Shown here: in pieces, positions 34,704 to 38,011 of the stretch
Layout of the letters: each line of letters starts with the position of its first letter
Numbering within the stretch: the stretch's first letter is position 1
NCBI GenBank assembly: GCA_028284945.1
Contig: JANQQJ010000003.1
Location: forward strand, 1-41,259
DNA: 41,259 nucleotides
Direction of reading: 5' to 3'
Source: Alphaproteobacteria bacterium
Lineage (GTDB): Bacteria; Pseudomonadota; Alphaproteobacteria; SMXS01
Made by a program: the position numbers and the translations under genes
Notes under the pieces: model-generated
Told to the model about the DNA's origin: nothing
Database searches by the model: none
Seen by the model: the letters and a program-made list of their open reading frames with translations, nothing else

Positions 34704-35531
34704 ATGGCCCCAAAAGACGGCATGCAGGTTAAATTCTGGGGCGTTCGCGGGTCTGTTCCCTGTTCCGGGCCGGCAACGGCAAAATATGGTGGCAACTCAT
34801 CCTGCGTTGAAATCTGGTGCGGTGACCGCCGGCTGATTCTCGATGCAGGGACTGGGATTCGCCCGCTGGGTGATACAATCAGCGGGCCCGAACGCGTCGA
34901 TATCTTTCTCAGTCACTGCCACTATGACCATGTGATTGGTCTGCCGTTTCTGGGCCCATTATTCATGCCCGGGTTTGAATGCCATATCTGGGCCGGGCAT
35001 CTGGGTGCCGGTGGCGGGATCAAGCGGGCCTTGTCTGACATGCTGCAGCCGCCACTGTTCCCAATCACCTTCGAGACGTTCCATGCGGAGATCGACTTTC
35101 ACGATTTTGTCGCGGGTGAGACGGTGAAATTCACCGATGAGATAAGCTTGGAGACGACACCGCTCAATCATCCAGATGGGGCAACGGGCTATCGGGTGGA
35201 GTTTGACGGGCGGTCGGTCTGCTATGTCACGGACACGGGCCATGTACCTGGCGAACCTGACAGCAACATACTGGGCCTAATCGAGGGCGCTGATCTTTTC
35301 ATCTATGATTCAACCTATACCGATGCGGAATTCGCCCGTCATGGGGGCTTCGGTCACTCGACCTGGCAGGAAGGTATGCGCCTGGCTGATCAAGCCGGGG
35401 TCGGGACCTTTGCGATCTTCCACCACGATCCGGGCCATGATGACGGCTTCATGGACGCTGTTGCATCAGAAGCCGAACAGGCGCGCCCCGGTACGTTGGT
35501 TGCGCGCGACGGATTGCTGCTAGAGCTCTAG
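34704..35531 (+). CDS. MBL-fold metallo-hydrolase
   Basis: A 275-residue metallo-beta-lactamase-fold protein. The metal motif is SHCHYDHVIGLPF (His71, His73, Asp75, His76); further ligands are His in NHPDGATGYR and Asp in VCYVTDTGHVPG, with a C-terminal HHDPGHDD. The N-terminal KFWGVRGSVPCSGPATAKYGGNSSCVEI block is typical of a group near PhnP/RNase Z. The substrate is unknown. The ATG at 34722 (MQVKFWG) is an alternative start. It follows the regulator by 21 bp and may be co-transcribed. Its 3' end overlaps xthA by 12 nt. Confidence 0.88.
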   Translation: MAPKDGMQVKFWGVRGSVPCSGPATAKYGGNSSCVEIWCGDRRLILDAGTGIRPLGDTISGPERVDIFLSHCHYDHVIGLPFLGPLFMPGFECHIWAGHLGAGGGIKRALSDMLQPPLFPITFETFHAEIDFHDFVAGETVKFTDEISLETTPLNHPDGATGYRVEFDGRSVCYVTDTGHVPGEPDSNILGLIEGADLFIYDSTYTDAEFARHGGFGHSTWQEGMRLADQAGVGTFAIFHHDPGHDDGFMDAVASEAEQARPGTLVARDGLLLEL

Positions 35532-36317
35532 ATCGACGGTAATCGGCGCGTGGTCCGAGGGTTTTTCCCAGTCCCGGGCTTCGTCCAGAATATGCATCTT
35601 GCTGATATGCGGCTGCAGCGGCGGCGTTACCCAGATGTGATCGAGGCGCCGGCCACGGTTTGACGCGCGCCAGTCGCGCGACCGGTAACTCCACCAACTG
35701 AACAGTTTTTCCGGTTCCGGCACCATATGGCGGACGGCATCGACCCAGTCGATCGAGTTCTGGACCGCGGTCAGTTTTTCCACCTCGATCGGCGTGTGCG
35801 AGACGATCTTGAGCAGTTGCTTGTGTGACCAGACGTCGAATTCGGATGGCGCCACATTCAAATCCCCGACCAGGATCATTTTGTCCTTCGGTTTATAGTT
35901 GCCGGCAAACCAACCGGTCATGTCGTCCAGAAACTCCATCTTGTGGGCGAACTTTTCGTTCTCGGCCGGGTCGGGAATATCGCCGCCGGCGGGCACATAG
36001 AAATTGTGGACAGTGATGCCGCCTTCCAAGGTCGCATAGACGTGGCGCGCATCTTCCTTGCCGCACCAGTCGCGCCGCGTGACATTCTCCATCGGGATTC
36101 GCGACAGGGTGGCGACCCCGTGATAACCTTTCTGCCCAGCGATGGCGTGATGCTCATAACCCAGCTTATTGAAGGCCTTTACTGGAAAAAGCGGGTCCGG
36201 AACCTTGGTTTCCTGCAGGCAGATGACGTCCGGCTGCACCTTTTCCAGGAACCGCGTCACAAGATCGATCCGCAGGCGCACGGAGTTGATGTTCCAGGTC
36301 GTCAGCCGCAGGGTCAT
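35520..36317 (-). CDS. xthA: Exodeoxyribonuclease III
   Basis: AP endonuclease and 3'-5' exonuclease of base excision repair. The 265-residue protein has RLTTWNINSVRLRID, DVICLQETKVPD (catalytic Glu36), GYHGVATLSR, the LVGDLNVAPSEFDVW block, RGRRLDHIWVT and the terminal SDHAPI catalytic His. Family length is normal. The stop overlaps the end of the MBL gene by 12 nt in a convergent arrangement. Confidence 0.96.
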   Translation of the reverse strand: MTLRLTTWNINSVRLRIDLVTRFLEKVQPDVICLQETKVPDPLFPVKAFNKLGYEHHAIAGQKGYHGVATLSRIPMENVTRRDWCGKEDARHVYATLEGGITVHNFYVPAGGDIPDPAENEKFAHKMEFLDDMTGWFAGNYKPKDKMILVGDLNVAPSEFDVWSHKQLLKIVSHTPIEVEKLTAVQNSIDWVDAVRHMVPEPEKLFSWWSYRSRDWRASNRGRRLDHIWVTPPLQPHISKMHILDEARDWEKPSDHAPITVDLEL

Positions 36318-36327
36318 GGAAAAACCT

Positions 36328-36909
36328 TCAGAAGATGTGGAATGTCCGGCCGCTCAACCCGATGGGCCACCGGCCCATTTCGAGCAGCCGGAATTTGAGC
36401 GCGAAGGGGTGATCTTCAACCGCCTGCGCCGCAAGCACAAGCCCAGCGCAGTAACAGGCCTGGACGGCTTGCCCGGCAGCGGCATCGATAATCGTGCCGT
36501 CTTCAACCGCCCAAAGCGAGGCGGCATGGGCAGCTGCATCCAGGACGATGGGGCCGGCGGCATCGGCGATACGGGCCAGAGCGTCGGTCAGCGATGCTTC
36601 GTCGAAATAGGTAAGCGCTTCCCGGCTCAGATCAGCCCGGAGTTGCTCTTCGACCTCCCAGCCTTCGCTGTCGAAGTCGGGATTTTCGGCGGCAAACCCG
36701 GCTTCCGTCCAATCCTCAGCCAGGATCGCTTCGGCGTCCGGAAAGCCGAGCATATCGAGATAGCGCTGCGCGACGTCGCGTTCTTCGGCTCGGAGCGGTT
36801 GCCCCAAGCGGCTGAACCAGGGCAGCCCATTGATCACCTGTTCAAGCCGGCCAATCGCCTGCAGGGCCGATTGACGGTCTTCTTCCAGAATGTCGAGATC
36901 GTCGTCCAA
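36328..36909 (-). CDS. Uncharacterised acidic protein
   Basis: A 193-residue protein I do not recognise. It is strongly acidic in the first 110 residues (MDDDLDILEEDRQS; EDWTEAGFAAENPDFDSEGWEVEEQLRADL) and more hydrophobic after that (IVLDAAAHAASLWAVEDG, AVQACYCAGLVLAAQAV). No signal peptide or clear membrane segment. The start is a TTG at 36909; the upstream in-frame codons give no other start before a stop. It precedes xthA by 10 bp on the same strand, so probably the same transcript. A strong hairpin lies 65 bp upstream. Confidence 0.65.
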   Translation of the reverse strand: MDDDLDILEEDRQSALQAIGRLEQVINGLPWFSRLGQPLRAEERDVAQRYLDMLGFPDAEAILAEDWTEAGFAAENPDFDSEGWEVEEQLRADLSREALTYFDEASLTDALARIADAAGPIVLDAAAHAASLWAVEDGTIIDAAAGQAVQACYCAGLVLAAQAVEDHPFALKFRLLEMGRWPIGLSGRTFHIF

Positions 36910-36973
36910 GCCGGTGCGCTTTCGGGGAGGTGGTAGATTGAACTATGCAGATTAACAGGCATGCCTGAATAAA

Positions 36974-37007
36974 GAAGCCCGGCCAGAGAAAATTCTGGCC
37001 GGGCTTC
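36974..37007 (-). terminator. Strong intrinsic terminator-like hairpin
   Basis: A perfect 14-bp stem, GAAGCCCGGCCAGA (36974-36987) and TCTGGCCGGGCTTC (36994-37007), with a 6-nt loop. On the minus strand it is followed by TTTATTC, a short T-rich tail; on the plus strand no T run follows. It would end the RNA candidate or lolA read-through. Confidence 0.75.
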
Positions 37008-37117
37008 GCGCTTTCGCGCCTTGGTACCAGGAGGGGGTCCGGTACCAACGACAGCCCGATGCAGAACACCAAGGGAGGGGTTGTGAAGCTACACCGCAAC
37101 GCCGCCGTTGAGGTGTA
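36974..37117 (-). ncRNA. Candidate structured small RNA with anti-Shine-Dalgarno motifs
   Basis: In the 427-bp gap between the unknown gene and lolA. Read on the minus strand, the order is: a stem TACACC-CAACG/CGTTG-GGTGTA (37090-37117); a CCCCTCCC stretch (37073-37080); TTGGTACC/GGTACCAA with a 12-nt loop containing CCCCCTCC (37021-37048); GCGC-GAAA-GCGC (37008-37019), a GNRA tetraloop; and a terminator. Loop CCUCC sequences are typical of alphaproteobacterial cuckoo/alpha-r14-like sRNAs, a resemblance, not an identification. A promoter TTGAAC (37139-37144), 17 bp, CAAATA (37116-37121) would start at about 37109 and so clip the first stem. The 37008-37080 hairpins are directly visible; transcription is inferred. 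Confidence 0.5.
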
Positions 37118-37181
37118 TTTGGTCCGTCTGTCACAAAAGTTCAACAGGGATTTTGCCTATTTTCGCGTCACTTTCCTGTGA
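37083..37181 (+). CDS. Possible 32-residue small protein
   Basis: A GTG at 37083 preceded by GGGAGGGG (37073-37080) opens a frame of 32 codons, rich in Lys/Arg and aromatic residues (KLHRNAAVEVYLVRLSQKF, then NRDFAYFRVTFL). An in-frame ATG at 37059 would add 8 residues but lacks a well-placed ribosome site. It lies opposite the RNA candidate, so the same GGAGG is the complement of the CCUCC motif. I know no homologue; this is a tentative entry. Confidence 0.25.
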   Translation: MKLHRNAAVEVYLVRLSQKFNRDFAYFRVTFL

Positions 37182-37336: not shown

Positions 37337-38011
37337 TTACCGTTTACCCGGCAAACGCCTGTTTCGGACCGGTCTGGGGTCCTTGAACTTCCACAGCTTG
37401 TCTTCAAGCTCGACGTTTTTTTCAAGGTTGTCGAGCGCCACGATGGTTACCTGCCCACGGCCATCGACAACTTCCCATTGGCTGAGTTCGAAGGGCTCGC
37501 GTTCAAACACCAGACGCATGGTGCCCTCGTCCCGGTTCTTCGGGTCGACAACACTGACCCGGATCCATTTGTCGCTGCGTTCCAGGTCGACGATCTCGAC
37601 ATCCTCGCCGAAGGCCAGTTGCGCGCGCACCAGCGGGCGCAGGGGCGTGTCGTTGATCGGCCAGCGAGTCACCTGTTTCAGGTCATAATCGACAAGCGTG
37701 ATCGCCGAGCCGTTGGACACCACCAGCAAGGGTGATGGTGGCTCATACTCGAAGCGCAGCTTGCCCGGCTTTTCCAGCGATAGCGTGCCTGTCGAGACAT
37801 ATCGGTTGGGCGCTGTTTGATGGAACCGAGCCCGCAGCGTGGTAATCGCCGACATATAGGCCTCGATCTGAGCCAGGTCGGCTTCTTCGCTGGTCGTGGC
37901 AGGACCGTCCGGGCTGGTCCAAACTGCGCTCATAGGCGGGGTGTCCGCGCCTGCTAATGCGGGAAACAGCGCGGCAGCCAGCCCCAAAATGATAATCTTG
38001 ATGCGAATCAT
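37337..38011 (-). CDS. lolA: LolA-like outer-membrane lipoprotein carrier protein
   Basis: Periplasmic chaperone that carries lipoproteins from the LolCDE complex to the outer membrane. The 224-residue protein has a signal peptide (MIRIKIIILGLAAALFPALAGA, cleavage near residue 22) and the family blocks TLRARFHQTAPNRYVSTGTLSLEKPGKLRFEYEPP and VSNGSAITLVDYDLKQVTRWPI. The C-terminal KFKDPRPVRNRRLPGKR is basic. It follows ftsK by 57 bp, the usual alphaproteobacterial order. Of the outer-membrane genes in the window, it would serve LptE and the DUF3576 lipoprotein, as an inference. Confidence 0.92.
   Translation of the reverse strand: MIRIKIIILGLAAALFPALAGADTPPMSAVWTSPDGPATTSEEADLAQIEAYMSAITTLRARFHQTAPNRYVSTGTLSLEKPGKLRFEYEPPSPLLVVSNGSAITLVDYDLKQVTRWPINDTPLRPLVRAQLAFGEDVEIVDLERSDKWIRVSVVDPKNRDEGTMRLVFEREPFELSQWEVVDGRGQVTIVALDNLEKNVELEDKLWKFKDPRPVRNRRLPGKR

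Follow-up and report, generated by a model that had tools for sequence, protein, structure and literature searches.

Does the 427-bp gap between a hypothetical ORF (start 36909) and lolA (end 37337) encode a small RNA (sRNA) on the minus strand, and to which known RNA would it be related? The initial annotation of the window (here, the whole 41,259-nt stretch that was analysed) had described a series of minus-strand hairpins in this gap and proposed a structured sRNA with two anti-Shine-Dalgarno (aSD) motifs. Coordinates and folding confirmed the size of the gap and the hairpin series. A structured trans-acting sRNA with two aSD-type loops is well supported as a prediction by family conservation, covariation and folding z-score. 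The remark that the order of its elements was not a recognised one was also fair; Rfam gave no match above gathering cut-offs anywhere in the whole window.

Conservation and predicted structure of the RNA

The minimum free energy (MFE) of the minus-strand gap was -80.4 kcal/mol, compared with -56.8 +/- 4.65 kcal/mol for dinucleotide shuffles (z = -5.07), and none of 200 shuffles folded equally well. A DNA search of 60 relatives detected the block in eight of the nine other genomes of the window's family (f1) and in no other relatives. Three segments were conserved across these nine aligned sequences, the window included: a stretch resembling a promoter (TTGAA and CAAATA with 17 nt between them), the RNA, which carries both C-rich motifs, and the terminator. 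Both C-rich motifs were invariant or nearly so in the eight other genomes. When 84,980 species genomes were scanned for the sequence pattern, the matches were seven MAG contigs from Alphaproteobacteria, not all of them reliably labelled, and a single contig from a Gram-positive, which was taken as a chance match.

The predicted RNA consists of four stem-loops, an arrangement supported by the alignment: SL1 (loop CCCCUCCCUU), SL2 (loop CCCCCUC), a small SL3, and a Rho-independent terminator. In a consensus and named-structure count, 97.5% of cells were paired in the conserved fold and six pairs were changed on both sides; none of 500 shuffles scored as high. The window RNA takes this form when folded from just past the -10-like hexamer. 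Several parts of the fold had been anticipated: the hairpin carrying CCCCCUCC and the GCGC-GAAA-GCGC hairpin are both present on the minus strand, and the 14-bp stem with T-rich tail was located at 37007-36974 on that strand, with compensatory changes in relatives.

The 5' part of the RNA required correction. The initial annotation drew a first stem with a 1x1 mismatch (UACACC-U-CAACG/CGUUG-C-GGUGUA), which can form in this one sequence; in the relatives 53.8% of its cells were paired, the same as in shuffles, and no compensatory change was found. This stem is probably absent from the RNA, because it overlaps the likely -10 hexamer. Its 3' half pairs downstream instead, and therefore CCCCUCCC, which had been described as unpaired between the first two hairpins, is placed in the loop of the covariation-supported compound stem-loop SL1. 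The expectation that relatives would keep the stems by compensatory change was borne out for the SL1 compound helices and the terminator; the first stem was broken without compensation.

Table 1. Features of the lolA-xth locus and of the predicted RNA (window coordinates).
Feature	Position	Strand	Evidence or remark
lolA, upstream neighbour defining the locus	37337..38011	-	PF03548, E 5.4e-27
-35-like hexamer TTGAAC (TTGAAA in most relatives)	37139..37144	-	Sequence; TTGA kept in all relatives
-10-like hexamer CAAATA, 17 nt from -35	37116..37121	-	Predicted; CCAAATACA or CCACATACA in 9/9 sequences
Predicted sRNA	36971..37115	-	z -5.07; covariance models R2/R3 132.7/131.5 bits; homologs in 8/9 other family genomes
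SL1, compound stem-loop: outer helix and inner GGUGUAG/CUGCAUC helix	37048..37108	-	Window MFE with start at 37115; covariation in helices 1 and 2
SL1 loop motif CCCCUCCCUU, putative aSD-type seed	37071..37080	-	Invariant in 9/9 sequences; mostly unpaired in ensemble
SL2 hairpin UUGGUACCGG...UGGUACCAA	37022..37047	-	Folding; counterpart of RusT SL2 GCCGGACCCCAUCCCCUCCCGGC in Caulobacteraceae
SL2 loop region GGACCCCCUCC, proposed seed	37030..37040	-	GGACC(C/G)CCCUCC kept in relatives; common to RusT SL2
SL3, GCGC-GAAA-GCGC (most relatives: GCG-UAACA-GCGC type)	37008..37019	-	Fold and alignment; RusT has its Hfq site here, putative in the window RNA
Rho-independent terminator, 14-bp stem and T-rich tail	36966..37007	-	Terminator scan; all cells of helix 6 paired (100%), compensatory changes present
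Conserved hypothetical protein, 193 aa, between sRNA and xth	36328..36909	-	Unmatched in Pfam and NCBIfam
xth, exodeoxyribonuclease III, downstream neighbour defining the locus	35520..36317	-	TIGR00633 and TIGR00195 over cut-off

Putative promoter and transcript ends

In the alignment of relatives, the -35-like hexamer sits inside a wider conserved block, AGGCAAAA...GTTGAA..TTTGTGAC. Caulobacteraceae copies of the RNA have a comparable CAAATT at the -10 position. A generic sigma-70 scan called no promoter, including at the -35-like hexamer. The true 5' end of the sRNA is probably near 37109-37115, which would give a length of about 137-145 nt.

Relationship to Caulobacter RusT

RusT (CCNA_R0199) of Caulobacter crescentus is a 118-nt RNA with four stem-loops whose gene is flanked by lolA and xth. 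NtrYX controls it and iron starvation induces it; Hfq binds it at SL3, and it represses TonB-dependent receptors and OmpW via SL2 (PMC11005374). Beyond RusT, we found no report of an sRNA at the lolA-xth locus in the literature on lolA-linked sRNAs. In the window, lolA, the sRNA and xth follow in this order, all on the minus strand, with one extra ORF between the sRNA and xth. The order lolA-sRNA-hypothetical-xth is identical in the family contigs, as far as these extend. The 193-aa protein encoded by the extra ORF is of a type that adjoins xth in several alphaproteobacterial families.

The two RNAs share the lolA-xth locus and strand, four stem-loops of which the last is a terminator, a C-rich loop in SL2 (GGACCCC..CCUCC), a small SL3, and a -10 of the CAAAT type. 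They differ in that the window RNA is longer (about 140 vs 118 nt) and that its SL1 forms a long compound helix and adds a second aSD loop, whereas an SL1 aSD motif is not described for RusT; the window locus also has the 193-aa ORF before xth, unlike the RusT locus. For comparison of sequences we used family f63, which was taken as Caulobacteraceae since CrfA, a Caulobacter sRNA, scored over cut-off in it (among control genomes, CrfA was found in Caulobacter only). The lolA-xth gaps of f63 carry RNAs with SL2 GCCGGACCCCAUCCCCUCCCGGC, vs ACCGGACCCCCUCCUGGU in the window. The SL2 loop seed is shared, being CCGGACCCC(au)CCCUCC in f63 and CCGGACCCC-CCUCC in f1, where the comparison is with f63 copies and not with NA1000.

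We conclude with good confidence that the gap is likely to encode a trans-acting sRNA of the Hfq type, about 140 nt long and transcribed independently, that would be the positional and structural ortholog of RusT.

Similar RNAs at lolA across Alphaproteobacteria

A covariance model built from f1 (R2) gave weak matches with the same layout in family f5, and one f43 RNA, found with the alpha-r14 model, lies directly 3' of lolA. For these reasons, regions around lolA were collected from 35 families. Among other weak class-wide R2 matches, L031 (a terminator only, in look) and L029 and L030 (no C-rich loops) were dropped. When the lolA regions were scanned for a hairpin with a C-rich loop followed by a terminator with a C-rich loop, 17 clusters were obtained vs 2.3 in shuffles. 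Thirteen of the 17 lay downstream of lolA on its strand and two on the opposite strand; the remaining clusters were L102, which is doubtful and 5.5 kb away, and L073, whose contig lacks lolA. Adding f1, f4, f70 and f167 to the scan candidates gives about 16 families with similar RNAs at lolA. Support was strongest for f1, f4, f5, f10, f63, f70, f145 and f167, and intermediate for f43 and f146; f51, f60, f95, f138, f155 and f156 had the position and loop type, with a weak model score or none. MAFFT placed the terminator arms wrongly when the SL2-to-terminator module was aligned across families, and a model-guided alignment was used instead.

A held-out model (R3) was built from f1 and f5 only, without Caulobacteraceae. 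Over 481 kb of other lolA regions, its best eight matches were all downstream of lolA on its strand, a class that made up 36% of the searched sequence (binomial p 3e-4); three of the eight were in f63. R3 matched the f63 copies in the right place at ranks 3, 6 and 7 of 24, with modest scores of 14-21 bits (E 0.035-1 over 481 kb). Class-wide, new R3 matches in G147 (2.5e-6), G354 (6e-4) and G078 (0.004) were all beside lolA, and one in G068 (0.009) was away from it. Given the modest R3 scores, sequence homology alone is not decisive, and it is locus and architecture that would carry the RusT identity. The lolA-linked, RusT-type sRNA is probably old and spread across alphaproteobacteria.

The position of the RNA varies within f5: it lies 6.8 kb from lolA in G013 and on a separate contig from lolA in one genome (L073, G326:C6:28949-29219). 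In this family, then, either the RNA has moved or neighbours were inserted.

Alternative explanations

Alphaproteobacterial sRNAs (alpha-R8, alpha-r14, cuckoo) commonly have C-rich aSD loops, and covariance-model scores between f1 and Caulobacteraceae are weak, as would be expected of a new lolA-linked aSD sRNA that converged on the position and loop type of RusT, is non-homologous to it and has other targets. However, locus, strand and the order of the four stem-loops are identical, CCGGACCCC..CCUCC in SL2 is common to both RNAs, and intermediates with the same layout occur in f4, f5, f10 and f167; convergence is improbable. The structure might instead be a lolA 3' UTR and terminator with incidental C-rich loops and no separate sRNA, since it shares the lolA strand, lies about 220 nt past the lolA stop codon and ends in a terminator. 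Against this reading stand the conserved promoter-like block upstream, the C-rich loops, which are the most conserved part, and the several families that carry the RNA apart from lolA, beside xth or elsewhere; RusT, moreover, is transcribed on its own from a promoter that is itself regulated (PMC11005374). We regard the 3' UTR explanation as highly improbable.

The initial annotation had named alpha-r14 and cuckoo RNAs as kin. A divergent alpha-r14 (NfeR1, Rfam RF02344) member, whose aSD-loop hairpins would silence ABC-transporter and ntrBC mRNAs, agrees with the general design of several hairpins exposing aSD motifs and a Rho-independent terminator. Among Rfam families that stayed below threshold, alpha-r14 also came closest (23.9 bits, E 0.028 for 751 bases), and the RNA at the G051 lolA locus has a weak alpha-r14 score (31.8 bits). 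However, the window score falls far short of the 58.8-bit gathering score, and the feature that defines alpha-r14, an identical CCUCCUCCC in the loops of three hairpins, is absent: the window loops are CCCCUCCCUU, CCCCCUC and a terminator loop that is U-rich, not C-rich. The alpha-r14 locus is other than that of the window, and stronger alpha-r14-like RNAs (L010, L012) differ in look and have flanks without a lolA match. Membership was rejected on the cut-off and on the missing loops, and the alpha-r14 reading is quite improbable; locus and SL2 point to RusT. The Hfq sRNAs of the alpha-R8 group (MmgR, SisA-D), likewise alphaproteobacterial, have UUUCCUCCCU as their aSD core. That core is single-stranded below a weak hairpin, whereas the window motif CCCCUCCCUU is in a loop; the 10-mer itself is not found (the window motif is ACCCCUCCCUU), and the alpha-R8 gene usually stands beside N-formylglutamate amidohydrolase, unlike the window sRNA with lolA and xth. 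Cuckoo RNAs (CcsR) of Rhodobacter have CCUCC-type loops too. They occur in tandem after a DUF1127 gene (ccaF1), and this assignment was rejected in that no DUF1127 gene adjoins the sRNA, which is flanked by lolA and by the gene of a protein unmatched in Pfam.

A search of the relatives with alpha-r14 gave nothing above cut-off. At L010 (G031:C1:245431-245802, minus strand), tandem alpha-r14-like RNAs with UCCUCCUCCC loops scored 52.9 and 56.9 bits, just below 58.8; these are probably true alpha-r14 members.

Proposed mechanism and targets

The genome contains hfq (E 4e-32) and 29 TonB-receptor plug domains. By analogy with RusT, the promoter of the sRNA would fire under envelope or iron stress (NtrYX), and Hfq would dock at SL3 and the terminator, so that the bound RNA presents the CCCCUCCC and CCCCCUCC loops. 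These C-rich loops could then pair, with the help of Hfq, with extended G-rich ribosome-binding (Shine-Dalgarno, SD) sites of mRNAs, chiefly those of TonB-dependent receptors and other outer-membrane proteins, and pairing there would block translation. Hfq-assisted loop pairing with extended SD sites is, on the RusT precedent, the most likely mechanism.

An enrichment of seed complementarity among TonB receptors (p 0.0008) vanished when SD strength was controlled and was dropped as evidence; after this control, the receptor start regions showed no enrichment (p 0.19 and 0.87). Because the receptor group shows no enrichment, the target assignment is taken from RusT. Two TonB receptors surpassed all 178 control genes in pairing with the SL1 seed, with 8-9 nt of perfect complementarity at their ribosome sites, GGAGGGGU at G000:C16:205396 (L121) and GGGGAGGGGU at G000:C43:9953 (L138). 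For both of these best target sites, the relatives were checked and have large TonB-receptor expansions without clear orthologs. The L121 receptor gene has the look of a siderophore receptor and an AT-rich upstream region.

Significance

RusT homologs have been reported in close Caulobacteraceae only (PMC11005374), and the window RNA has no Rfam family. Grouping the lolA-linked RNAs of about 16 families would place a characterised regulator of iron and envelope stress in a deeper evolutionary frame and supply a comparative alignment for it. Its seed, its Hfq site and the rule for its targets (outer-membrane receptors with extended G-rich SD sites) would then be directly testable in many species. 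Short aSD loops alone are a poor basis for assignment to alpha-r14 or cuckoo RNAs; the locus is a better guide. We lean towards the view that RusT is an ancient alphaproteobacterial sRNA anchored at lolA-xth, and that the window's family has a two-seed form of it, with aSD loops in SL1 and SL2, which may broadly restrain the translation of outer-membrane proteins and is encoded beside a lipoprotein-export gene.
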